Shown: piece after piece, positions 43,889 to 60,862 of the stretch
Layout: each line of letters starts with the position of its first letter
How positions within the stretch are numbered: the first letter of the stretch is position 1
NCBI RefSeq assembly: GCF_963678975.1
Contig: NC_089276.1
Span: 32,983,716 to 33,047,715, forward strand
DNA: 64,000 nucleotides
DNA from: Dysidea avara
Lineage: Eukaryota; Porifera; Demospongiae; Dictyoceratida; Dysideidae
Direction of reading: 5' to 3'
Position numbers and translations under genes: made by a program
The notes under the pieces: model-generated
Database searches by the model: none
Told to the model about the DNA's origin: nothing
Seen by the model: only the letters and a program-made list of their open reading frames with translations

Positions 43889-44150
43889 AACACCGATAAC
43901 AACTAAGCCAATAAATGCTTTTTACTTTGGTACTATTCTCCACAGTACAGAATAGTCTACACTAGGTGCCAATTTGATACCTGGTATGTATTTCTGTCAA
44001 AACGCTCCATATCATTAGCAACTAAACAGGACCTGGCATTTATATGGGACACACCACAGTTCATTGCAGTATAATACACAGCTACGGGAAAAGATTTAAA
44101 ACACAATCGCCAGTATGTGACACAAAGAGGAGAAAAAACAACATAAAACC

Positions 44151-44222
44151 AGGGGGCACCTAGATTTGAACTAGGGACCTCTTGATCTGCAGTCAAATGC
44201 TCTACGACTAAGCTATACCCCC
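44151..44222 (-). tRNA. tRNA-Cys(GCA), D-loop variant
   Basis: 72 bases with the GGGGGTA/TGCCCCC acceptor stem and GCA anticodon (CTGCAGA loop). D-loop GTGG is changed to GTCG and one D-stem base differs, which weakens the tertiary GG contact. The T stem has a change that restores Watson-Crick pairing (CCTAG/CTAGG). T-runs for Pol III termination follow downstream. Uncertain whether functional. Confidence 0.7.
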
Positions 44223-44355
44223 CAACACTGATAACAACTAGCAATTATAGTACATAGTAAGCCAGAAACAAGACTTCACTCCTGGATGATGTGGAGATTC
44301 AATTGAAGGGGCCATGGGAAACAGGATAAGCCACATTTGAAAAATAAAAGTGTTT

Positions 44356-44396
44356 GTGAAGTGGGCACATGCACTATGTACATGTGCCCACTTCAC
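44356..44396. repeat. Perfect hairpin, 16-bp arms
   Basis: GTGAAGTGGGCACATG and its exact complement around a 9-base loop. No flanking duplication seen. Confidence 0.85.
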
Positions 44397-45175
44397 AGCC
44401 ACTTTACTGGTACTATATATCTTCAGTAAAATTTGATGTTAAACAACGGAATGGATTGGAATCTTAAGCACACATGCACACACAACTTTTGACATGCTAT
44501 AATTCTAGATGAGTGCAAACTGTGTAGAGGGAGAAATTGCCTACATCCAATCCACCACTTCCAATAATTATTGAATTGCTGTGTGGGAAGTGAATAAGCT
44601 TAGAGATACACCAGACACTGTTAAATAGTATAACACTACACACTCAACTATCATCATGTTGATACACTGTATTATGGCCCATGAGTTTATTTCTTTCAAG
44701 CATTTTTTTACCTGGGCTATAAACGAGACTGGTGTTTATATACCTCATCAGAATTCACGAGTCGACTTCACACCTTGGTGTTGTACTCTCTTGGACTCTC
44801 CTTGATGCAGCATATTTCACAGATTTAAGCTTAAAAGGAAATCTATAAAATGTTCTTCACTTCATCGTCTATAACACCACCCGGAATTGTTAAAAATAAT
44901 GGCTGCACTAGACATTTATTTGCGACTCAGCATTTATTTTTGTTATGATGCTGTATACCCCCGGCTACTAAATGGGACCAGGCTTTTTATATGAGACTAG
45001 CCATAATTTGAGGCAATAATTTGATACATATGTGTGTTGTCAGAAAGGTACGTATGCATACACTACATACTTTAGCACAGCATTAATATTACTGTTGCAA
45101 AAAAACAAACAAACCAATTGAACTGTACACACGTATACGAAAGAAACATATAAAACAATACAGAAAAAATCATCC

Positions 45176-45246
45176 CGGGGGCACCCAGATTTGAACTAGG
45201 CACCTCTTGATCTGCAGTCAAATGCTCTATCACTGCACTATACCCC
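45176..45246 (-). pseudogene. tRNA-Cys pseudogene
   Basis: Anticodon GCA kept, but the acceptor 5' strand has only four G, the D stem is disrupted (TAGTGCAGTGATAG), a variable-region base differs and the discriminator differs. Poor cloverleaf. Confidence 0.75.
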
Positions 45247-46362
45247 AACACTGATAACAACTAACAATTATCTCATATAACAACTAAAAGAGTTTGCACC
45301 TTCATTACCAGCCTTTTACATTACATTGTAATTTGTATCAGTGAAACATCCCTACTTTGGGAGAAGAATCAGTTTACAACCAAACAAGCACTTAATTGTC
45401 TCAACCTCCCAAGGTGATAATGGTAAGACTTTGCATAAAGCAACATGCTGCTAATGGAGTGGCTGGAAGGAATCTTGAGCACACTCATACACATGGACAA
45501 GAATTATAGACATAACAGCACAAGAGCGATATGCCAGTTTCAGTGCACAACAGGTCCAGGAAAAAATGATTCCATAACCAAACTGTTTGTACGTTAACCC
45601 TTAAACCCACACAGAACTTTTGGGGAATTTGTATTTACAGCTTTTAATAAGGTAACTTAACTCCTACAGCCTAAAACTAAATTGGTTGAAAGTCTGTTCA
45701 CTGGGCTACTTGGAGAAGTTTAAATGAACACTGTAACTACAGTACAAAGACATATGTACTTGTTATGAAGCATTGAAGGATTATACGCAATTCCGCAAAT
45801 CGATCTTCTTGCCACATGTTAGTTTTGATTGTGGGTTTAATCACATGAGTCATACGTATATGGCCTGATGGAGAATTTAATGGAGAAGCAAGCAAAATTT
45901 GTCTAAAAGTTGGTAGGAGCAACCGCCATCAAGTTGTAGATCATTTTATAAAGATGTGTAAACGGTTTGCATGTTTTATTTGCTGGAAGGTGCTTACACA
46001 GTAAGTTTTTGGCTGAGAGTTTAGTGTTGAAGTAAAACCTTAGTTACTATTTTAATCCTTATTACATCATGAGTAGAATAGTGTAAATTGTGTAGCAATA
46101 GGAACTATACTTCAAAAGTTACAGCGCTTTGTCTAAGACATGCATATTAGGTCCAGTTTTCTGGATTATGCAGTTTTAAGGGCTAACACTGAGATGTCAT
46201 AATGGCAACATGACCGAATGGTTATTTGATACAGTACGTATGTTACACATCAATTAAAAAGTACTCAATGCTTCAGTATAGCTTTGTTGTAACAAACAAA
46301 GCAAATTACGTAACTCTGCACACAAAACGTGAAAAAACATTAAATTTAAAAAATGCATACCC
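45247..46362. repeat. Segmental duplicate block between tRNA-Cys copies
   Basis: 45291-46320 matches 50769-52560 in the same orientation, starting TTTGCACCTTCATTACCAGC, apart from the MITE-A present only in the second copy. No gene other than the flanking tRNAs. Confidence 0.85.
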
Positions 46363-46434
46363 AGGGGGCACCCAGATTTGAACTAGGGACCTCTTGATCT
46401 GCAGTCAAATGCTCTACCACTGAGCTATACCCCC
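46363..46434 (-). tRNA. tRNA-Cys(GCA)
   Basis: A full 72-base cloverleaf: acceptor GGGGGTA/TGCCCCC, D arm GCTC..GAGC with AGTGGTA loop, anticodon stem TTTGA/TCAAG with loop CTGCAGA, T arm CCTAG-TTCAAAT-CTGGG. The A and B boxes are intact and a T-run lies just downstream (GCATTTTTTAAATTT on the minus strand). It matches the array consensus exactly and closely resembles vertebrate tRNA-Cys. Likely functional. Confidence 0.95.
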
Positions 46435-49220
46435 AACACTGATAACAACTAACTATTATCCACTATTAGTACACAGTAGGCCAGGAACACTTGAAGACTT
46501 TACTACCTGGATGGTGAAGAAAAGTGTTTCAGCGGAGCACAAGGGGAATTCCATGAAAATGTCAACCAAGACCTCAAAATTAAAAGTGTATTTAGAGTAA
46601 ATCCTACCGTGCCATTTTGAAAATAGATACATGATGTTCCCTATATAACCAAATATGGTCAACAGCAATATCACACTTTACTGCCACTTTGTGCTATTTT
46701 AGAACATATTCCTCCCACAGTCAGGAATAACAATTTTTTTATTACCATTACAGTGTGTGTAGATCAGTTGTACAATAGTTAAGGAGTTCCATCACCAAAA
46801 ATTTAATCACCTACTCAAGTATATGTTTTATGGCTTGCAAAGTTGGAATGTCATTGTTACTATATGTCCGTCACAAAATATTGCATCTTTTAACAAAATC
46901 TCTGTAATACTATACAACATTTTTTGAAATTTACTTTTAGCTTCCCATTAGGCATATTGTCCACCCTTAATTGAAAGATCGCAGCTCTTCGTGTCTGTTA
47001 AAAATATAACATAGCAGAAAGCAAAGGGAATTTTAATGAGCTAAAGAGGGAAAAGAATTTTTTGGTTCCACATGTCTGTACAGGTACTTAAATTAGAGTC
47101 ATTAAAGGCTATAACAAATCCATTTTGCAAGGTTGTTTCTCATCAACTTCACAACATAAAGATATACAGTATTACAAGCATCACCCAATGTACATGCATT
47201 TTTATTAAAGCTTGGATCAGCAAGATATCACTTTTATTACATTGCTGATTTCAAGTGATCTAGAGCAGATATAGCACAGTATAATTGCTGTCATGTAGTT
47301 TACCAGTCTGAAAACAAACTTCATACCTCTTAAAATCATAACTGTGTTCAAGAGATATACATAGTAACTTGAAAATATTTCTCTTTCTATTGAACATGAA
47401 TTCTCAATTCATTAGACTGAGCCTTTTTACGACACCTCATGAAATGTGACATCTCATGAACGTGTATGGTTGATGGGGTTAGAGTGACAGAGAACAAGAC
47501 AATGTGAAGAAATGTTTTGATCTGAACAATCACATTACTAACACATTGAAGTATTCACCACTAGGACTGTGTAAACTTTGTCAAGTTCTCCAAAATCAAC
47601 TGCAATAAGGTTTTCTATATGGACACTATCTTAAAGGTGGTGATGGCTTTGCTACATACAGCACATAGAGTTTGTTGCACTTCAAATGTTTGGGGCAGAT
47701 AAGGTTTAAGTATTTTTCAAACAGGTTTTCAACGTTGCTACTGTTCCATTCGAAGATGTCAGGCACCAAATCAGAAGGGAAGTAATCAGTTGAGTTCCCT
47801 TGATAGACAACCAGTCAGAAGATGGTGATATTAAAGTAAACAGATAAACAGGTTTGAAAATGGCCAAAGCTGGAAATCTGGATGGTAAAATGGCCTAGAC
47901 TAGCAGATAATGGTCTGCACAACATTAGTCCACTAAATATTGACGGTAATTGAGAATAGTTGGTGCTTGTAAGACAAAAATAGTTGCATTATGTATAATT
48001 TGTAATATGTTTATAATTACAAGTACATGCTACATCTGACTATGCTTAGAATTACAATTACGTATATCTCACGTGTACTGTACGTCTAACACAGATTTTA
48101 CATCCGTCCATCCGTCCCAAAACAAGACGTAGCTGCTACTATAAGACCTTACAGTAGTACACAATTCAATATTCTTCCTCTATAGCTTGTCCCAACTGCA
48201 CTTCGTGATCAGTTGTGGGCGTGGCCACTTGTGGTGCAAACTAATTAATTTGTCAGACACCTAATACAATCACCTTCCTTTACTCTCTAAGCATAACTGT
48301 CCACGGCAAAATTATTCATGGCATGATGAGCACTTGGAGTCATAAGGTCTTTTGCTCGCTACTATGACCAGGTTGCGCATGCACAAAATTCAAACTTCGC
48401 TTACGTAATTTGAATGATGCACCCTTCGAACCATTGAACGAATGCAGTACATTCGTTTATGCACTAATTAAAATACTACTACTATGCATTGGCTTTAACA
48501 TATATCTGCAGTCACAGTGTTTAACATTTAAGTTTGCTATTCGGCAATTTCATATTTTTCTGTGTACGTCCATTACTGCTGTTCATCAACCCTAACCCCT
48601 CCCCTGTATTACAAAAATTAAAACTAACTGAATCAATATGTACTCTAGGTCAAGCTTTTGCCTTGAAGCCCCATTGTGTAAAAATATAATATCCTTTCTG
48701 TAACTGTCTACAGGTCAATTTGTTGTATGAATTATACGTCCAACACAACAGAACTGCCCATACCTATTCTTGTACGCAGCAAGGATATAAATTTTCTGCA
48801 TCTGACATCATAGATACAAGTCATACAACCACAGAATAAGATAACAAAATCTATGGTGGGTGCATTCAAGTAACAGATTTTTAATTTTTATGATGTGTGA
48901 ATGCTCCAGTGGAAACCACTACAATTGCTACAATTGTGATCATGGATAGAACTATATACCGTAATGCTCTAAAACAAGGTTTCAAAGCACTGGCTAAGTG
49001 TGCCTAGCTAGCACTTATAAAAGTCTGCAAGTGTTCGTAAAATTAGAAGACCATCAACCTAACCATAAAATTTTACTGCACACTATGTACAGTATGTTGC
49101 TTTACTTTGTAAGAATATTATTCACATTCCTAAAAAGGAAAGTTCATCTTTAACATGGAGATTTTGAACAAGAAAAGAGAGTACAAAAGGAACATTAATG
49201 GACAGGAATCTTAAGCACAT
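46435..49220. other. Mostly unique DNA, no gene seen
   Basis: 46440-46520 is repeated after the tRNA at 53.6 kb. 48750-49220 is the counterpart of 53720-54190. Between about 46.7 and 48.7 kb no repeat family, splice-supported exon or long frame was found. Confidence 0.45.
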
Positions 49221-49704
49221 ACCGTATATGACCGTATTAAAGCCGGGCTCAAATATACGCCGGGTACAGCTAGGGGACTGTCATAATAAACGCCGGGGCT
49301 CATTTAAACGCCGGGTGCTAATGATATGCACTGAAAGGGTTTCTAAACTCGTGTCAGCTGCTAACTTTACAGTGATGTCTCGTCACCAGTCTTATGATGT
49401 CTTGTCTTGTTCGACTATGCCTTCTCTTCTGGTGATGGCCATAGCGTATTTATTGTGGTCATTGTCATCTTTCTGCCCGACTTCCAATGTTTCACCCAGC
49501 AGAGGAGTCCAAATGGGTTTATGTACGTGATGGGCTATGGATTTTGTATTTCATAGGTACTTGTACTGGCACCTGTCATTCTCAACGAGTGGCTAGTAAG
49601 AAATAAATTCCCGGGTCCAAATTAACGCCGGTCTCATTTAAACGGCGGGTCAACAATGACTTATAGGAAATAAACGCCCGGGCTTCTATACGGTCATATA
49701 CGGT
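49221..49704. mobile_element. MITE with ACCGTATATGACCGTAT ends, 484 bp
   Basis: ACCGTATATGACCGTAT at both ends inverted, flanked by ACAT (49217-49220, 49705-49708), a likely 4-bp target duplication. Inside are AACGCCGGG-type repeats in opposite orientations near the two ends. The matching block at about 54.18 kb reads AAGCACAT without the element, giving an unoccupied site. Confidence 0.85.
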
Positions 49705-49830
49705 ACATACATACATACAGTATGTGTTCAAAGGCTCAATGCATGCTTCAACAAAGCTACTAAGGATGCTAAAACAAGCATACAAATATGTACAGGCAAC
49801 TAACAAAAAGACAAAAACAAAACAAAATAT

Positions 49831-49902
49831 AGGGGGCACCCAGATTTGAACTAGGGACCTCTTGAACTGCAGTCAAATGCTCTACCACTGAGTTATACCC
49901 CC
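49831..49902 (-). tRNA. tRNA-Cys(GCA), variant
   Basis: Complete 72 bases with GCA anticodon. Position 37 is T instead of A (loop CTGCAGT) and the first D-stem base is changed (ACTC for GCTC), so one stem pair is lost and the conserved purine next to the anticodon is gone. Probably impaired. Confidence 0.7.
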
Positions 49903-50344
49903 AAACACTGATAAAAACTAACAATTATCTCATACATGTAACCAGATCTACAAGAACTCTACATCTTTGTGCATCTCACAAATTCCTTCTTTAAAAAAAA
50001 TCTACGTAGATAGCCATAGGAAAAGTTTTATCCCTAGAAACAGAGAAATTCAAAGCTACGGCAAAATAACAAAAAGATCGATCGATTTGTACAGTGACAA
50101 CATGGAAAAAAACTAGAGATGCTTAATCACATTCATAACTTACAAATGCAGATGCCACAATCATAAGTTTGCAAACACAGTGTGCTGAAGTATGAATAAT
50201 GTTCTGAAGGCTACTAGCCCATGCTAAGATTGATCATCAGATACGGTACTAGTATATAAATCAAACAGAGTGAGTGTTTGTTAATAGTTCTTTGTGCCTG
50301 AGTATTAGGTGAGTGCACCCTGACTGATATACACTGTATGTAAT

Positions 50345-50702
50345 TAGAAGTGTGCGATGACTAATTTAGACATATCTCAATAAAAGTTATTTCCTTTGAA
50401 CGTATCTCGATTATCTAACATATCTTGATAACTGAAACAATTATCTATTTTAGTAAACTGCCAATATTGTAACCAGTAAAGTGAGCAAATTGCAATTTGA
50501 AGACTATAAAAAAGTGAAAAATGTTAGTCTTAACACTGTTCTCAAGTGGTGGGAGAGTTGGAGCCCCCAGAAGGTGCCTATACACCATCAGGTATACAAA
50601 TAGTTTACAGAAGTTTACTATTATTTAGATTAATAAACCTATCATCCTTATCTCGATAAGTCTTGTGATACTTAGATATATCTAGATAATTGCACACCTC
50701 TA
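50345..50702. mobile_element. Probable hAT-like MITE
   Basis: Starts TAGAAGTGTGCGATGAC, ends GATAATTGCACACCTCTA, with subterminal ATATCTCGATAA-type motifs at both ends. The form TAGAGGTGTGCA is common for hAT ends, but no clean 8-bp duplication is seen. Confidence 0.65.
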
Positions 50703-50768
50703 TCATTTATACTAAGTACAACTGCAGGGATTCACTGATACACTTTAGCCCTTGGGCCTGCGGGGCTA

Positions 50769-52594
50769 AGTTTGCACCTTCATTACCAGCCTTTTACATT
50801 ACATTGTAATTTGTATCAGTGAAACATCCCTACTTTGGGAGAAGAATCAGTTTACAGCCAAACAAGCACTTAATTGTCTCAACCTCTCAGGTGATAATAG
50901 CATTTACGTAAGAATTTGTATAAAGCAACATGCGTGCTAATGGAGTGGCTGGAAGGAATCTTGAGCAAACTCATACACACATTTTGATATGCCAGCTTGG
51001 GCAAAATTTGTAAATGTACATAACAGCACAAGAGCGATATGCCAGTTTCAGTGCACAACAGGTCCAGGAAAAATGACTCCCTTACCAAACTGTTTGTACT
51101 TTAAACCTACATAAAACGTTTGGGGAATGCGTATTTACACATTAAAAACATACATGACAGCTTTAAATGGGGTAACTTGACTCCTACAGCCTAAAACTAA
51201 ACATTGGTTGAAAGTCTGTTCACTGGGCTACTTGGAGAAGTGTTAAATGAACACAGTAACTACAAAGACTTGTGTATTTGTTATGAAGCATTGAAGGATG
51301 ATGATTCACAATTCCGCAAATTGATCTTCTTGCCACATGTTTAGTTTTGATTGTGGGTTCAATTACTTGAGTCATATATGGCCTGATGGAGAATTTAATG
51401 GAGAAGCAACCAAAGTATGATTCGAGTTGATAGGAGCAATCACCATTGAGTTGTGGTGGATCATTTTATAAAAGGTATGTAAAGGTTTGCATGTTTCTTT
51501 GCTGGAAGGCTGCTTACATGGCAAGTCTAGGGTTGAGAGTTTACTGATAGGGTAAAATCCTAATTACCGATATAATCCTTACACGTACACAGATAAAACC
51601 CGTTACTCAGCATTTCGGATCAAGAACAGTACCTCTGAAATCCATGCACAACAAAAGAAATGATGCTGCACGCCCTAGTTATATTAGTTATTGTCCGAGT
51701 TATCGTCTGAAAAGTGAAGTATCCATTACGCTTCGTTGTCTGCTATGTTCAATCCGTTACACAGCAGTACAAATCAAGAATTGTTCGAAAAGCTCCTCTG
51801 TAATCAAAATAGCCACTACAAAAAATATGGACGATTTCCGTTACGAAGGGAAGCCATCATGTGCTACCACCAAATCGACACTTTTCACTGTCAGCAAAGA
51901 TGAATGGGACACAAAGGAGGACACTGGTAAATCCATGAAGAATGCATTGTACGTACTACGGTATGCCAAAAGGCACCTATCGGGCCGAAGCGACGTCGAA
52001 CAGTGAAAAAATCAAGCCCGTAGCCTTAGCCGTTATCGAGTTACACCTGTCTGAAGGCATCAGTCAGTTACTTACTCAGTCAGTAGAAAATTCCATTAAA
52101 TAAATTATTTTTAAAATTCTGTAAAAACTTGTTGAAAGCATTTTGGGTCGATCTGAAAGCTTTTTTGGGCTTAGTTTTACCTAACCAACACTGCCTCATC
52201 GTCATCAGGGAAAATTGAGGCTGTTTTTTGGGTGATATTATTCCGTGGGCAACGCCTACTCCTTTGTGGTCCCTACTATACAGTTACTATCGTACTGTAT
52301 GATTACATCATGAGGAAAAAATATTGCATAGCAATAGGAACTATGCTTCGAAACTCACAATGCTTTGTCTAAGACACGCATATTAGATCCAGTTTTCTGG
52401 ATTATGTGGGTTTAAGGGCTAACACTGAGATGTCATAATGGCAACATGACTTGAATGGTTATTTGATACAGTATGTATGTTACACATCATTTAAAAAGTA
52501 CTCAATACTTCTGCATAGCTTTGTTGCAGCAAGCAAAGCAAATTAACTCTGCACACAAAACAGAAACAAAAATTATAGTAAAAAGTGCATATCC
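50769..52594. repeat. Second copy of the 45.3-46.4 kb block
   Basis: Starts TTTGCACCTTCATTACCAGC as in 45.29 kb and continues, with a MITE-A inserted at about 51.59-52.30 kb, to the tRNA-Cys at 52595. Small indels separate the copies. Confidence 0.85.
51588..52303 (-). mobile_element. MITE-A copy inserted after the block duplication
   Basis: Inverted copy, about 715 bp, ending GGTCCCTACTATACAGTTAC. The paralogous site near 46050 (TTAATCCTTATTACATCATG) lacks it, so insertion came after duplication of the tRNA block. A + strand frame of 120 codons (51644-52006, MHNKRNDAARP...) spans its first half; parts of this peptide are conserved in other MITE-A copies, but no known domain is recognised. 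Confidence 0.85.
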
Positions 52595-52666
52595 AGGGGG
52601 CACCCAGATTTGAACTAGGGACCTCTTGATCTGCAGTCAAATGCTCTACCACTGAGCTATACCCCC
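52595..52666 (-). tRNA. tRNA-Cys(GCA)
   Basis: Identical to the 46363-46434 copy across all 72 bases: intact acceptor, D, anticodon and T arms, GCA anticodon, A and B boxes. Downstream T-runs on the minus strand are short (TTTT near 52581). Likely functional; one of two fully consensus copies. Confidence 0.95.
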
Positions 52667-52699
52667 AACACTGATAACAACAAACATTTATCTCATATA

Positions 52700-53538
52700 T
52701 GGAACCGGATCTACAAGAACCCTATGCGTTCGTGCATCTTTCAAATTCCATTTTTAAATCTACTTAGATAGTCATGTGAAAAGTTTTATCCCTACAAGCC
52801 GAGAACTTCGAAGCCACAGCAAATAACAGAAAGATCGTGACAATATGGAAAATAAACTACAGGCACTTAATCAAACAATCATAACTTACGAAAGTAGAAC
52901 CCACAATTGTAAGCTTGCAAACACTGTGTGCTGAAGCATTATGAAGTATAAATAATGTTCTAGCCCTGCATGCTAAGATTGATCATTAGATACTGAAACA
53001 GACTAGTGTATAAATCAAACGGAGTGAGTGCTTGTTAGTTCTTGCACCTACGTATTAGGTGAGTGCATGTACCCCAAGTGATACATGTATATATCACTTA
53101 TATCACAACTGCTCAGGATAGCCCTTGAGCCTGTAGCCCTCAAGCATAAATATACATATCAGCAAATCCCCTGCAGCTATGGTATAACTATTACAAAATC
53201 CTCAAAGAGTTGGCTTCACTACCAGCTTTAGTAATACACTGTAATTCATATCAGAAACATTTCCCTAAAAATTCTTAGGGGAGCAGTAACTGTCAAAGAT
53301 CTGGCCAAGCATTTATTTGTTGTTCTGGAATCTTACATACGTTTTGACACACCACACCCTGTATGTAGCTCAGACAGGAGTTCTAAACATATCAGTGAAA
53401 TGAAAGTTACTGAATATCATTTTGTATAATATTATCATGATAGCGCAACCAAAAATGTCATACATTAGTACTAACATGTCACATCTAAAAAAAACAAAAA
53501 AACAAAAAAAACAAGCAAAACAAAAACAAAAAACATCC
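52700..53538. repeat. Duplicated block with the unoccupied site of the big transposon
   Basis: 52690-53470 matches 54480-55790 apart from two foldbacks there. At 53457-53490 it reads CATACATTAGTACTAACATG, the uninterrupted form of the site that carries the transposon at 55,789-60,740. An earlier part also matches 49.93-50.34 kb. Confidence 0.85.
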
Positions 53539-53610
53539 AGAGGGCAACCAGATTTGAACTAGGGACCTCTTGATCTGCAGTCAAATGCTCTACCACTGAG
53601 CTATACCCCC
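53539..53610 (-). tRNA. tRNA-Cys(GCA), stem-mismatch variant
   Basis: Complete length and GCA anticodon. The 3' acceptor strand reads GCCCTC for GCCCCC (a G-T wobble) and one T-stem base is changed (CTGGT), giving a mismatch. Strong T-runs follow. Possibly functional, more likely decaying. Confidence 0.65.
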
Positions 53611-54315
53611 AACACCAATAACAACTAACAATTATTCATTATTAGTACACAGTAGGCCAAGAACACTTGAAGACTTTACTACCTGGATGGTGAAGACAAG
53701 TGTTCAACAAATATGCAGATACATTCTTGTACGCAGCAAGGATATAAATTTTCCGTATCTGGCATTGTACATAGATACAAGTCATACAACCTAACAAAAT
53801 CTATGGTGGGTACATTCAAGTAACAGAGTTTTAATTTACGATGTGTGAATGCTCCAGTGGAAACCACTACAACTGCTACAATTGTATATGTGGTGATCAT
53901 GGATGGAACTAGATACAGTAGTGAATGAATTACAATCTCAAACAAGGTTTCAAAAGCACTGGCTAAGTGTGCCTAGCTGGCACTTATAAAGTCTGCAAGT
54001 ATTTGTAAAATTAGAAGTCCGTCAACCTAACAACATCACCACAAAATTTTACTGCATACTACACACACTACATGTACGTTGTTTTACTTTGTAAGAATAT
54101 TATTCACATGCCTAAGAAGGAATGTTCATCTTTAAAAGAAGATTTTTGCACAAGAAAGTAGAGTAAAAATGTACGGGAATCTTAAGCACATATGTGCACT
54201 CATATGTAAATGTGTTCAAGGGCTCAATACATGTTTCAACACAGTTACTAAGGATGCTAAAACAAGCATATGCATAACAAAAAAGAAGAAAACGAAACAA
54301 ATAAACAAAAACAAA

Positions 54316-54378
54316 ATCTACCAGATTTGAACTAGGGACCTCTTGATCTGCAGTCAAATGCTCTACCACTGAGCTATA
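54316..54378 (-). pseudogene. tRNA-Cys pseudogene without acceptor stem
   Basis: D, anticodon (GCA) and T arms remain (TATAGCTCAGTGGTAGAGC...), but both acceptor strands are missing. The flanks match the 49.8-kb copy on the 3' side. Confidence 0.85.
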
Positions 54379-54618
54379 ATGTATATCAATAATTTTCTAT
54401 ACAATATATCTGAACATGTACTTGATTATGTCTTTCAGGTCAATTACAATACTTCTTCTACTCAAACCGAAACTTTATTTGCGGATGAGTGCATCTTTCA
54501 ATTCCTAGATAGCCATAGGAAAAGTTTTATCCCTAGAAGCTGAAACTTCAATACTACAGCAAAATAACAGAAAGATCAATTTGTATAGTGATAATAAACT
54601 ACAGGCACTTAATAACAG

Positions 54619-54930
54619 CAAGAGTAAATAATGGAAGAGAGAGTATCCAACTGCCATATACTGCATCAAAAATGAGCATGTCAAGTAGAGAAGCCATCCT
54701 GTTGTGCTATCAAAGTAACTGTTGAATGAAGTAATAAATACCTTCTAGCTCAGACTGTTTGACTTCAAATCATGCCTGGGCACTTCAAACAGTCTGAGCT
54801 AGAAGGTGTTTATTACTACATTCAACGCTTTCTTTGAAAGCACTACAGGATGGCTTCTCTACTTGGTGTGCTCATTTTTGATGTAGTATATGGAAGTTGG
54901 ATACTCTCTCTTCCATTATTTACTCTTGGT
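54619..54930. mobile_element. Foldback MITE of about 312 bp
   Basis: Long inverted arms: AAGAGTAAATAATGGAAGAG and GAGAAGCCATCCTGT..GTGCT on the left, complements on the right, with CCTTCTAGCTCAGACTGTTT / AAACAGTCTGAGCTAGAAGG as inner arms. The paralogous block near 52870 lacks it. Confidence 0.9.
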
Positions 54931-54938
54931 AACAGTCA

Positions 54939-55166
54939 TACGGTACAGCCCAAGCGCAACATTGCACTCACTTGCACACACAACTTTGCTTGAGATTTCA
55001 AAAATTGCTAATGAAGGGGCGTGGCAACTGTTTTGCTTGCAATTCTTGTGAACGAAACAGTTGCCCAAGCGAAACAGTTGCCATGCCCCTTAATTAGCGA
55101 TGTTTAAAATCTCAAGCAAAGTTGCGTGTGCAAGCGAGTGCGATGTTGCGCTTGGGCAGTACCATA
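54939..55166. mobile_element. Foldback MITE, GCCCAAGCGCAAC family, copy 2
   Basis: TACGGTACAGCCCAAGCGCA to GCGCTTGGGCAGTACCATA, sister of 15,452-15,688. It sits 8 bp from the preceding foldback, and both are absent from the paralogous block at 52.87 kb. Confidence 0.9.
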
Positions 55167-55967
55167 ACTTACGAATGCAGATCCCACAATTAATTGTAAG
55201 TTTGTGAACACTGTGTGCTGAAGCATAATGAAGTACGTATAAATAATGTTCTGAAGGCTACTGGCCCATGCTAAGATTGATCACCAGATATTGAAACAGA
55301 CTAGTGTATAAATCAAACGGAGTGAGTGCTTGTTAGTTCTTGCACCTACGTATTAGGTGAGTGCATGTACCCCGAGTGATACATGTATATATCACTTATA
55401 CCACAACTGCTAGGGATAGCCCTTGGGCCTGCGGCCCTCAAGTACGTGTATATATATATATATGTATCAGCAAATCCCTCGAAGCTGTGGTATAACTATT
55501 ACATAATCCTCAAAGAGTTGGCTTCACTACCAGCTTTTGTAGTACACTGTAATTCATATCAGAAGCATTTCCCTAAAAATTCTTAGGGGAGCAGCAATTG
55601 TCAAAGATCTGGTCAAGCATTTATTTGTTGTTCTGGAATTTTACACACATTTTGACACACTACACCCTGTATGTAGTTCAGACAGGAGTTCTAAACATAT
55701 CAGTGAAATGAAAGTTACTGAATATCAATTCATATCATTTTGTATGTATTATCATGATAGCGCAACCAAAAATGTCATACACTAGTACCAAGAGTTTATA
55801 ATAAGAGGAGAGTATCGAACTTCGTTATACCCAGTGAAAAATGAGCCCGTAAAGTATTCCGGATATCACAGTAATTTTGCGTAAACTCACCAGTTGTTGA
55901 TTGCTGAGAGTTAACACGTTTTGGGCGGCTTTGAGAATGTCCGCATGTGTCCGCTTTAAGTTTCAGG

Positions 55968-58900
55968 ATGGATGAAACTCCTTCGAGACGAGTGTCCTTT
56001 GCTCGTCAAGGTGAAGAAACGACTGACGATGAAGTTCTAATTGATGACCATCGTCATGGTATGTGTAGCAGTGGTGGGTCAGAGCGTACCGTTAGAATAG
56101 AAGTCGGCGATGAAGGTATAAGTGAAGAAACTGACAGTAACAACGTGGAGCTGGGTTTGCCAAGGTGCAATATTATCGATAAAGCAAAAATTGAATCATT
56201 TCACCATGAAGTTTGTGAGTTGGGAGTTGATAGGTTTCCAGAACTGTGCTTTTCACCAGTCCAGGATATTTCAGGTAATTCTATCTTAGTGATAACACAG
56301 CGTACTGTGATGCTTCATCCACCGTTTGGCTATACATCACGAATCCAAGTGACAATTACAGGTTTTGAATATGAGGTGCATGTACTGATGAAGAAATGGG
56401 AATCTGGTGTATTTCAATCAGTTTTCGATGTCCAAGAACTGTGTGAGAAATTTTGTAGAGATCCTTGTTACAAGTTTTGTCCTGGTATAGATCCACTGCA
56501 CTACAAGCAACATTACTATGGAGCAATGCGCTTTGATATTTTAAGCGTTAGACAAACCAAGGAGCCATTTGCCCATGTTGACTCATTCAATTGCAAATTG
56601 TGGTTTAAATTGGCTAGTAATGCTACCAGCGATGAGAAAAGCTCTAGTGAGGTGCAGTGCTCTGCCTGTAAGAGACTTGTGACTGATTTAAATTGTCAAA
56701 GGCATCGCACCTTACAAGAGAGCCCCAGTAGAAAGCTGAAAAGACAGTCGTCGTCATCATGTGCCAGACTATCCTACATGTCTCCTGCTAGTCAACAAAG
56801 GAGAAAGTCAAATGCACAAAGTGAGAGATCAAACATGATAAGGAAGTTGGAAAAGTACAATGAATCTGATGTAACATTGAATGATGAACAACATGAAGAG
56901 ATGTGTACTCTTGTAGAAAGGATTGGTAATGGTGATTTAGATGAGATTTTTCTTGAAGGGAGTGAGCATGGTGTGGGTGACCTTATGAAGGAGATCTGGT
57001 ATACAGATAGTAAACGTCAGCAACAGCAGTTTCTGCGTGACCAATTCAAGAATGGTAATTTTTATATTATTCTGTTGCACTGTTAATTATTCTGCTCTGT
57101 TTTTTCTTCAGCTACGGGTGCTCGCGGCAACAGATAGAGTATGATTACCATCAGAATTGGTAAGCCACTGCAGGATTCAATAGATTATATAGACTGTTCT
57201 TGTATGCAGTAAATAAATAATAAATTATGCATGCAAGGAAGGTTGGTGGCAGAAATTAGGAGTTTGATAAACTCAAATTTACAAAAAAATTTTTTGTTAT
57301 TTTGTAGCCTTGGCAGTATATACCAGAAGCAGTGCAGCTTATGATGCACTGAAAGGATTTGGGATCTTGCAACTGCCATCAAAGGCCACATTGCAGGCTT
57401 ATACTGGAGCATTCATGCATGAGCCAGGAGCAAGGAGTGAGTGTATTGAAACTCAAGTTGCCCGTTATGTCCTTTTTAAAGAGCAATGCAGAGAAACTGG
57501 TAGACAAGAACCGAGATCAGATGGTGCGCTTATATTTGACGAAGTAAAGGTAGCATGCCAGCTGATGTGGAATTCCCGCAGTCACCAGTTGATGGGTCTT
57601 GCAATGACCCACAAACAGTTGCCTTCCCTTAATGATATTTATGGACTGCTGAAGGAACCTGAAGCTGTGCAGCAAACATCCTACATTTTACAATTTCTTT
57701 GGCGTGACCTGACTAGTGAATTTGACATTGTTGGGCCCTATTTCACTAGCCCATCAACAGTGGACAACAAATTTGTTATGGCATGCGTCATGGAGACAAT
57801 CTACCTGTTCCAATTTCACGAACTTAAAACTAGTTTATTAGTTTGTGATGGTGCATCTCCAAATGTTTCAGTCATCAAAAGAAACCATGGACATGCTGGA
57901 GTGTACTCAGTAACAGAAGGTGAAGACGACATCTTTAAAGTAGAGCCATGGATGGTGAACCCATGGAACCCGCCACACCGAATATTTTGGCTGATCTGTC
58001 CATCACATCAGGTAAGCTATTGTATTGCCTAATGGTAATAATTATTTGATATTTTTTAGCTGAAGAACATGATTAATGCCTTGTTCTCTTCAAAGACAAG
58101 TGGCACAAAACATTTTCAACGTGTCGGTAAACCTAAGTTTGGATGGGATACTATTGATGACTTATATAAACAAGAAATTGGCCGAGCTCAACTCAACTGT
58201 GCAAGGATGGTACCAAGGCTGAAGGAAACACATTGTCTTCGAGATGCATGGACAAAATTGAATGTGCTACCAGCGAAGATAATGCAGGTAAGTTATGGTG
58301 TTATTTTTTGATTGTAGAATGTACAGTGGTATTTTATTAGCAAGAACAAGTGTTGGGAGAGCTGCATTGGTATATACATCAAGACAACACTACACCAGAG
58401 GAATCAGCGAAAACTTCAGAAACACTTAAATACTTGGAAGCTTGTCATCATTTATTCGAGTGTGGCTTTCTTAGCCATGAAAGGGTCCAAAACCTAAACT
58501 GTGATGTCATAAAGAACATTAATAAAGGTTACCACTATTTTTCTGGGTGGCTCACTGATCTCCTAGAGCATGGTATGTGATCTACAGTATGTCAAACTAC
58601 AACATGAATGTGTATACTTACATCAACAGATCCACAGTTTCCACATACCAGCAACACACAGAAGGAGTTTCTATCTTGGCAAAGTATGCGAATAGGGTGG
58701 CATTGTGTACACTGTTGTTAATTATGTTTCTTTTGTTTATGTAGCGTGGGACCTTTTACGGATAGATGTTTACAGTTTTAATGCTTTTGTGAAATGGTTC
58801 TTAGAGACATATCCAACGTATTTCATCTCCCCACTCCGTATATCTGGTTCTGCTGTTGAGAGTCTATTCAGCCAGTATAAATATAGTGCTGGAGGGAAGT

Positions 58901-59058
58901 TGGATGCAGTTAATTATGTAACGTCGAGGTGTTCCCATTTGGTAAAACAGTGTACTACCAGTCATCAGGCAGGAAAAGGTTATAGGGACCAATCTATTGG
59001 CACATTGGAACTACCATTAATAAAACACAAGTATGGAAAGAAAGAACAACAACAATAA
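55968..59058 (+). CDS. P-element/THAP9-like transposase, 7 exons, one in-frame stop
   Basis: Exons by GT-AG sites: 55968-57054, 57112-57159, 57308-58011, 58060-58287, 58341-58572, 58630-58704, 58745-59058. They sum to 2,688 nt, an exact 896 codons. Start ATG is MDETPSRRVSF; an upstream GTG in frame is not needed. Residues 230-245 hold a short C-x2-C-x8-C-x2-H cluster (CSACKRLVTDLNCQRH), not a THAP domain. The RNase H-like core follows: RSSAAYDALKGFGILQLPS, LIFDEVKVACQ (Asp about 456), LLVCDGASPN (Asp about 559), ICPSHQLKNMINALF, and RISGSAVESLFSQYKYSAGG (Glu about 830). The order and the long D-E spacing fit P/THAP9 transposases. Codon 371 in exon 2 is TAG (57135-57137). Exon 2 is 48 nt, phase 1-1, so skipping it would keep the frame and omit the stop. 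Everything else is open. Introns are 40-150 bp. Confidence 0.85.
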
Positions 59059-59101
59059 CAAGTGTTTCTTACTAATGTATGTATTAAACATAATCAAGAA
59101 T

Positions 59102-60552
59102 TTAAGTACCTAATTTAGTGCTTAATTTTGTATGCTGAGTTAATAAGGTGTTCCTCAGGTTGACATCTACAGTTGACGCTAGTCCCTTCTTAGTAGCTAA
59201 TTGTTGTTTGGTAGATGAGATGAACTCCTGGATTCTGGTATTGCATAGTTTCCTTGTAAATTCTTCACAGACGCCCTCAACGGTTCCTTCACTGAGGACA
59301 TCAAGATTTGGTATCTTCTGTGATAACACATTTTTGAATGATTGTTCAATGTTACAGTCAGCTTTGATAGTGTCATGAGCAACCTGTGTTAAAAAAACAA
59401 CATATAACATTGTTGTGTATTCATGTGGTGGCTTTCCTTAGTATGCTTGAATGTAGTACAATTTACCTTGATCAATTCATCTCCATGTTCATTTAGCCCC
59501 TTCAAGTTGACCACTTCTTTTAGAATACTATCAACTTCACGGAGGTACAGTATGAAGACTGGGTCAGGAAAATACATAAATCCTCTGTCACAATACTGTA
59601 AGTACCCAGGAATGCAAGATTTATCCTTAACGTTCATGGCTTGCAAAATAGTGATCTTCTGAGAAAGACTATCTTTGCAGTTATCTGAGCAGTGCTTGAT
59701 ATCTTTATACAAACCATGTAGCATGCTACAAAGTGTTGCTCCCCCAAAGCGGTAATAAACGCCATCATCATCTGCTTCTATTGTAATGGTTTCAGGCTGC
59801 AGAAACTTCTGCTGAAACCGAGCAACATGATCCAGTAAAAAATGATAGACTGTAGATGATATGGTCATCATAACTTTGTTACAGCGTGGAACAGGAACAC
59901 CATTAGCTTTTGCAAACCCCAACCACGTGTTTCTAAGTGCACTTACTTCATGTCCCGACAATTCATGATAATCAATATCTTGTAAAGAATGCTCTTCACT
60001 GAGAAGAAAAACGCTGCAATATTTAAACAAGTCAATTTGGAATTGTAAGTAAGCATCCTGTTGTTTCTTGCTGGAGACATACATTGCTGCAAAGTAACGT
60101 TGGTGATGAATCATCAAACCGTGCAGCGGCTGTTCGGTTGAGCACACAACTTCTGTAAACTCTATCAACAACATATTACCTTCAAAAGTTGCTTTTAACT
60201 TGGCAACAATTTCACAGCGTAGAATCTTGTCATCGATTTTCTGTAGTGATTGCAACAAGCTATCTCTGTCAGATTTTTTCATCGCCTTTGTTTTGCTCTT
60301 CTTGGTCTTCTTCCTTTCGACAACAGTTTGTTTGTCATGCATTGGTGTTACTGTCTTCGTCTTCTTCGCTGCGCGCTGTTTAGAACAACCAGCTGCCCCA
60401 TTCCCGTCACTCGACTCGGTACCCTGAGTTTTTGTAAGCCTTCGTCGTTTTTTTGCTGGTGAAGCTGTTCGTGACTGCTGCTGCTCTTTGTCGTGAGCTT
60501 TCCTGCCTTTCCCGGTACCTCTTCCTCGACCTCGTCCACCACCACGTGCCAT
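59102..60552 (-). CDS. Second transposon gene: lysine-rich protein of unknown function, 2 exons
   Basis: Exons 60552-59467 and 59383-59102 with an 83-bp intron (AAG|GTAAAT ... AACACAG|GTT) give 455 residues with no interruption. The start is the ATG of MARGGGRGRGRGTGKGRK. Residues 1-95 are Gly/Arg- then Lys-rich, with a nuclear-signal-like PAKKRRRL. Later come SALRNTWLGFAKANGVP, a YYRFGGATLCSMLHGLY segment, YCDRGFMYFPDPVFILYLRE, and a C-terminal KQQLATKKGLASTVDVNLRN. These fall in the same order as HKLRTS..W, RYVGDYVIRNLL, INRGGLTRITTEAF and KQSTQKGTGKSKSLR of the broken gene at 42-43 kb, so I infer one family; that is a by-eye match. Facing gene A from the other end, with promoter space just inside the right repeat, it is probably co-mobilised, perhaps as a DNA-binding or regulatory partner. 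Function unknown. Confidence 0.85.
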
Positions 60553-60790
60553 TTTGTACACAAGATTATGGGCGTGCGTAAAAGGAGCACGCCCGGTATC
60601 TCAGTTTCACGCGGCGCAAGTAATTAGTCAGCAATCAACAGTTGGTAGCATGGCATTTGATCGAGGCCATAGGACTTTACGGGCTCATTTTTCACTGGGT
60701 ATAGCAAAGTTCGATACTCTCCTCTTATTATAAACTCTTGCTAGTACTAACATGTCACATCTAAAAAAAAAAACAAAAAAAAAAACATCC

Positions 60791-60862
60791 AGGGGGCACT
60801 CAGATTTGAACTAGGGACCTCTTGATCTGCAGTCAAATGCTCTACCACTGAGCTATACCCCC
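60791..60862 (-). tRNA. tRNA-Cys(GCA), one T-stem mismatch
   Basis: 72 bases matching the array consensus except one T-stem base (CTGAG for CTGGG), giving a C-A mismatch. Long T-runs directly downstream (two runs of eleven T on the minus strand) form a strong Pol III stop. The big transposon lies 50 bp beyond the tRNA 3' end. Possibly functional. Confidence 0.8.

Follow-up and report, generated by a model that had tools for sequence, protein, structure and literature searches.

P elements are usually presented as carrying just one gene. Within the P superfamily, Galileo of Drosophila produces 7-bp target duplications with the consensus GTANTAC, according to the sections of PMC4168063 available to us. 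In Harbinger elements, a second, Myb-like protein contacts the transposase, permits joint nuclear import, and binds the element ends; this accessory protein evolves faster than the transposase and has the same phylogeny, as described in the available portions of PMC9179366. Here, we analyze a transposon in a 64,000-nucleotide stretch of the genome of the sponge Dysidea avara (NC_089276.1, positions 32,983,716 to 33,047,715 of the forward strand; the whole stretch is called the window). The transposon occupies window positions 55789–60740 (4952 bp) and contains two convergent spliced genes. Gene A runs rightward in seven exons and encodes 888 amino acids in an open copy, and gene B runs leftward in two exons and encodes 455 amino acids. 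The element is a single copy of its family, and that family belongs to a large, diverse group of P-related cut-and-paste transposons with two genes in D. avara. We consider it probable that B serves these transposons as an accessory transposition factor.

The association of the two genes was analyzed throughout the genome. A gene A exon query gave 155 matches with 150 of 493 candidates scored, and the pairing analysis covers the 150 A matches listed. B queries from three lineages revealed at least 150 merged loci of the B family; the locus counts are lower bounds, with the best 101 of 321, 71 of 539, and 105 of 450 candidates scored. B rows overlapping loci already entered were omitted, and neighboring rows were merged for pairing; one B locus stands as two rows in one B listing. 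B was located within 10 kb downstream of A in 122 of the 150 listed A matches (0.4 expected at random), and 121 of these 122 pairs were convergent. This agrees with an earlier note on this DNA, which had proposed that a second gene is conserved in a fixed tail-to-tail arrangement. Two cases of B upstream of A within 10 kb were found when 145 B loci had been counted. Five A matches that were earlier unpaired (L047, L048, L050, L051, and L052) were read directly, and a convergent B was present in all five; with L048, L050, L051, and L052 added to the 122, B is beside A in 126 of the 150 listed A matches. Another locus, L049, has its last A exon inverted upstream, beside a 483-bp inverted repeat. 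No intact element with A alone was seen among the loci read. As the group diversified, A and B were passed on jointly in this tail-to-tail arrangement. The earlier note also considered that B might have an independent single-copy host locus, as would be expected if this copy or family had picked up a host gene on a single occasion. B is multicopy and paired with A in many distinct lineages, and the numbers (at least 150 B loci, 122 paired with A) rule out a single host capture for practical purposes.

Eight cousin loci, picked by B matches, were fetched. Both genes are present and convergent in seven of them (L039–L043, L045, and L046). Inverted ends of 72–89 bp surround both genes in L039, L040, L041, L043, and L045, and a 7-bp duplication is present in L039, L041, L043, and L045 and was not found in L040. 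The fetched stretch of L042 begins within the end, and no inverted ends of L046 were found in the 7.1 kb fetched. L046 belongs to a deep lineage, in which B (L046:87-1946) is a single intronless open frame of 619 amino acids and the A match has repeated N-terminal stretches. The remaining locus, L044:346-2062, is a 1717-bp B-only element with similar inverted ends, the 7-bp duplication GTAGTAT on both sides, and a B frame that is open over the matched exons. A near-identical B at C5:33756984 lies 1810 bp from a gene A, so L044 appears to have arisen by internal deletion, and it is a possible trans-acting source of B. An element of this kind, with B open over the matched exons, could also be the leftover of a trans-acting repressor, that is, a product of its own gene limiting the copy number in a role comparable to that of the P repressor. 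A self-limiting gene would, however, be expected to be lost more often, and B is kept beside A in 126 of the 150 listed A matches over deep divergence; we regard a repressor as highly unlikely. Short gene-less elements with related ends also recur in the genome (L020–L038; left-end search). Two facing ends were found in 17 of the 20 short loci fetched, separated by ~0.5–0.6 kb in 16 and by 1.29 kb in one, and a 7-bp duplication was detected in seven of the 20 by script and additionally in L027 by eye. These elements were probably mobilized by cousins of this family.

In eight lineages, the A and B trees built by maximum likelihood had one and the same topology. The A and B identity matrices of these lineages are correlated with r = 0.94 (3 of 40320 permutations as high) and, when L046 is omitted, with r = 0.90 (4 of 5040 permutations). 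Identity across the eight lineages is 30–77% for B and 37–81% for A, indicating that B evolves faster. Internal stops were masked in this comparison (three, five, and six in A of L043, L045, and L046, respectively, and one in B of L041), and some of them may reflect an unspliced intron. The dN/dS ratios of L040 versus L042 are 0.12 for A and 0.175 for B; this is the one pair in which the ratio was measurable, two other pairs being saturated at synonymous sites. Both A and B are under purifying selection in the L040/L042 pair.

The faster evolution of B (30–77% versus 37–81% identity) would fit an arms race, in which B sustains expression of the element by counter-silencing or regulation and is not a part of the transposition machinery. 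VANC, the counter-silencing factor of a plant Mutator-like element, is an example of such a protein, and the existence of a B-only derivative indicates that B may act in trans. An invariant core in 41 members and a tree like that of A fit a partner of A at least equally. Moreover, the accessory protein of Harbinger likewise outpaces its transposase, as stated in the available part of PMC9179366. We judge a counter-silencing role to be an unlikely alternative to an accessory transposition factor.

The features of the element in the window are as follows, with TIR denoting a terminal inverted repeat.

55782..55788, unstranded: left target-site duplication CTAGTAC; the same 7-mer is on the right
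55789..55855, + strand: left 67-bp TIR, starts with CAAGAGT; such ends in 10 of 10 copies
55889..55907, + strand: left 19-bp subterminal inverted repeat; 89% pair, in 10 of 10 copies
55968..57054, + strand: gene A exon 1, start ATG and N-terminal Cys-containing region; GT donor in 10 of 10 copies
57112..57159, + strand: gene A exon 2, coding for the conserved GNRWS region and interrupted by an in-frame TAG in the window copy; this stop is unique to the window copy among the 10
57308..58011, + strand: gene A exon 3, TNP-like RNase H N-terminal domain (PF21787) with the first two putative catalytic Asp
58060..58287, + strand: gene A exon 4
58341..58572, + strand: gene A exon 5
58630..58683, + strand: gene A exon 6
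58745..59058, + strand: gene A exon 7, with SAVESLFSQ containing the putative catalytic Glu, and stop codon
59059..59101, unstranded: 43-bp spacer between the A and B stop codons
59102..59383, − strand: gene B exon 2, stop codon at the low end
59467..60552, − strand: gene B exon 1, beginning with the ATG at 60552 and coding for the basic N-terminus and the conserved core; homologues found
60628..60646, − strand: right 19-bp subterminal inverted repeat; in 10 of 10 copies
60674..60740, − strand: right 67-bp TIR; such ends in 10 of 10 copies
60741..60747, unstranded: right target-site duplication CTAGTAC; the same 7-mer is on the left

The architecture described in the earlier note was reproduced. 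Its 67-bp terminal repeats correspond to the TIRs at 55789–55855 and 60674–60740, which match at 65 of 67 positions in the window copy (mismatches at 35 and 37), and its 7-bp target duplication is CTAGTAC at 55782–55788 and 60741–60747. The two genes, which it had placed just inside each repeat and 43 bp apart at their ends, start 112 bp inward of the left TIR (A, at 55968) and 121 bp inward of the right TIR (B, at 60552 on the − strand), and their stop codons end at 59058 and 59102, respectively. The 19-bp subterminal inverted repeat lies ~100 bp inside each end and is found near both ends in all ten copies.

Ten full-length copies of the family, 4934–4960 bp in length and 98.8–99.9% identical, were found. 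The copy search with the left end scored the best 40 of 349 candidates, and searches with B and with A recovered the same ten near-identical loci. The 7-bp duplication is perfect in nine copies and has a single mismatch in L017; the two TIRs match at 67 of 67 positions in eight copies and at 66 of 67 in L015. Full copies lacking B, which the earlier note had raised as a possibility, were not encountered (B in 10 of 10 found, none without it). Gene A is open in seven of the ten copies. It is disrupted by a stop in exon 2 of the window copy, a stop in exon 1 of L011, and a deletion across a splice site in L015. The gene A of the window copy is probably broken because of the in-frame TAG in the exon at 57112–57159. 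A six-exon model of gene A that omitted this exon was rejected, as homologues show the exon to be conserved. The gene B frame is open in nine copies and frameshifted in L011; L018, one of the nine, has lost its GT splice donor. Substitutions among the young copies were counted after excluding copies of differing coding length (four of ten for A and two of ten for B). The A differences (31 nonsynonymous and 21 synonymous; ratio of 0.47 in six copies) look mildly constrained.

The target site over 20 perfect duplications is the palindrome NTANTAN (T2 in 19, A3 in 14, T5 in 14, and A6 in 18), which resembles the GTANTAC of Galileo and is an independent link to the P superfamily. The end of the window copy is 50 bp from a tRNA-Cys gene. 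The window contains a local tRNA-Cys cluster at 44150–60862 on the − strand (seven tRNA-Cys(gca) and one tRNA-Arg), and the element adjoins its last tRNA. Targeting of insertion to tRNA genes was considered and rejected: ARAGORN detected a tRNA in one of the 20 loci scanned, which was the window copy itself, and none in the other nine full copies, which were scanned with 500-bp flanks.

Judged by its sequence, gene A encodes a transposase-type protein with a P-type RNase H domain. The TNP-like RNase H N-terminal domain (PF21787) was detected on exon 3 with an E-value of 7e-8 and 33.3 bits (cutoff, 24.6), on an 872-aa model of gene A with 29.7 bits against the same cutoff of 24.6, and in all 18 aligned A sequences (the query and 17 homologues). 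The putative DDE triad, assigned by motif in the 888-aa protein, consists of D456, D559, and E823, which are kept in 18, 18, and 16 of the 18 sequences, respectively. The catalytic order is D-D-E with intervals of 103 and 264 residues, the second of which is long, and no Pfam GTP-binding match lies within those 264 residues between the second Asp and the Glu. Among the 18 sequences, no Pfam match was obtained for THAP at E-values up to 1, nor for a GTP-binding, C-terminal RNase H, or other P domain. The N-terminus is a conserved Cys-containing region different from THAP, and the position of the D(2)H motif reads C(2)H in 18 of 18. No solved structure credibly matched gene A by sequence (best E-value, 0.38). 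An Amphimedon homologue is named "Transposable element P transposase-like RNase H domain-containing protein" in UniProt, and further homologues are named from Sycon, two corals, and a priapulid.

The designation P-like in the earlier note holds for the catalytic domain PF21787 and the target site, but no THAP or GTP-binding domain was detected; Pfam profile searches of A gave PF21787 above the cutoff and no THAP match. Because neither domain was detected, the element is, on predicted domain content, better termed P-related than a canonical P element. A more radical possibility is that gene A is not P-derived and belongs to a separate superfamily that shares only the TNP-like RNase H fold with P. 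The 18 aligned sequences, without a Pfam match to THAP, GTP-binding, or C-terminal RNase H domains and with C(2)H in place of D(2)H throughout, would be consistent with such an origin, as would the lack of a solved structure matched by the A sequence. PF21787 scores above its curated cutoff, however, the D-D-E order has the long second interval (103 and 264 residues), and the 7-bp NTANTAN site matches the GTANTAC of Galileo (available sections of PMC4168063). A separate superfamily is distinctly unlikely in our view.

Gene B encodes a protein that is, on profile comparison, unrelated to A. The idea that B is a diverged duplicate of A, or one of its domains, was rejected (probability of 0.5%). 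The first 96 residues of B contain 31 Lys or Arg versus seven acidic residues, and invariant core residues are common to 41 members of the B family. Homologues numbered 73 proteins in one search and 115 in another, with overlapping lists. The species named among them are the sponges Dysidea and Amphimedon, most others are from unnamed contigs, and one is from a bin labeled proteobacterium. No credible Pfam domain was found in B itself. Over the 41 relatives, the best Pfam match was 5.1e-5 in one of 41, and no family occurred in more than three members. A Myb model was absent both from the matches of B itself and from the 25 of 47 weak Pfam families listed for the relatives. Neither NCBIfam searches of three relatives nor solved structures (best E-value for B, 0.02) gave anything credible. 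The group thereby adds a new protein family whose job can be tested. Searches of bacterial/archaeal and viral contig collections confirmed no relatives. Amphimedon is named as a source of relatives of A as well as of B, so the A–B pairing may be older than the Dysidea/Amphimedon split.

Here, we propose a mechanism in which B is most likely an accessory transposition protein, with its biochemical role inferred by analogy with Harbinger. Transcription would begin near each end, and the two messages would meet at the short spacer. A would pair, cut, and join the CAAGAGT ends, and B, with its basic N-terminus and conserved core, would work with A as an accessory transposition factor. B may bind DNA or A and thereby build a complex at the long terminal and subterminal repeats, taking over the work of the THAP or GTP-binding domains in Drosophila P. 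The B-only and gene-less derivatives would be mobilized in trans. We further suggest, tentatively, that this may be an obligate two-protein system: an ancient P-related group combining a THAP-less transposase with a new protein family standing in for the functions of P in DNA recognition and assembly.

Several observations weigh against this accessory role and the joint inheritance. No B is shown for 24 of the 150 listed A matches; L049, the one of these that was read directly, holds a rearranged gene A, and no B was found there. One A–B pair, at C14:1703643, is not convergent. Support at the deeper nodes of the trees is low to modest (36–100 for A and 54–100 for B), and the matrix correlation falls to r = 0.53 (10 of 120 permutations) when each close pair is reduced to one member and L046 is left out. 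The B differences among the ten young copies (24 nonsynonymous and six synonymous; ratio of 1.31 in eight copies) look unconstrained, which may be due to drift of dead or redundant copies. Finally, no recognizable DNA-binding domain was found in B by Pfam for B and its relatives or by NCBIfam for the three relatives. The proposed partnership is open to experiment: young copies with both genes open allow a direct comparison of excision with and without B, and the B-only derivative is a natural test of trans action.

The closest known systems compare with the element as follows. Galileo resembles it in having a palindromic 7-bp site (GTANTAC versus NTANTAN), long inverted ends, and a DDE transposase; its transposase has a THAP domain, whereas none was detected in gene A, and the D(2)H motif described for P transposases and Galileo is replaced by C(2)H in gene A. 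The available sections of the source mention no second gene in Galileo (PMC4168063), in contrast to gene B here. Drosophila P and zebrafish Pdre2/THAP9 share with our element a TNP-type RNase H domain, terminal and subterminal repeats, and a spliced transposase gene. The terminal and subterminal repeats are 31 and 11 bp in P and 67 and 19 bp here. The target duplications of P are 8 bp long, against 7 bp here, and P has THAP and GTP-binding domains, neither of which was detected here; the available portions of the sources on P and Pdre2/THAP9 mention no second gene (PMC7776569 and PMC10983969), and gene B is present here. No published two-gene P-type element or study of D. avara transposons was found in the literature searched, Repbase and most subscription journals being outside its coverage. 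What appears to be new is a P-related two-gene element group without a detectable THAP domain.

Two-gene organization is shared with elements of the Harbinger type. ISL2EU, which is Harbinger-like, combines a transposase with an HTH or THAP domain and a second protein; that second gene encodes a YqaJ exonuclease (available portions of PMC9179366), whereas no YqaJ is among the 25 of 47 Pfam families listed for the B relatives. Harbinger itself has two genes, congruent evolution, and a faster second gene, as here, and differs in belonging to another transposase superfamily and in having a Myb/SANT-like accessory protein (same portions of PMC9179366), to which B bears no recognizable Myb-like similarity. 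That a second gene has been retained across deep divergence suggests an origin of two-component transposition outside the Harbinger type as well. By analogy, Harbinger is the closest working model for B, in the sense of a likeness of role and not of membership.

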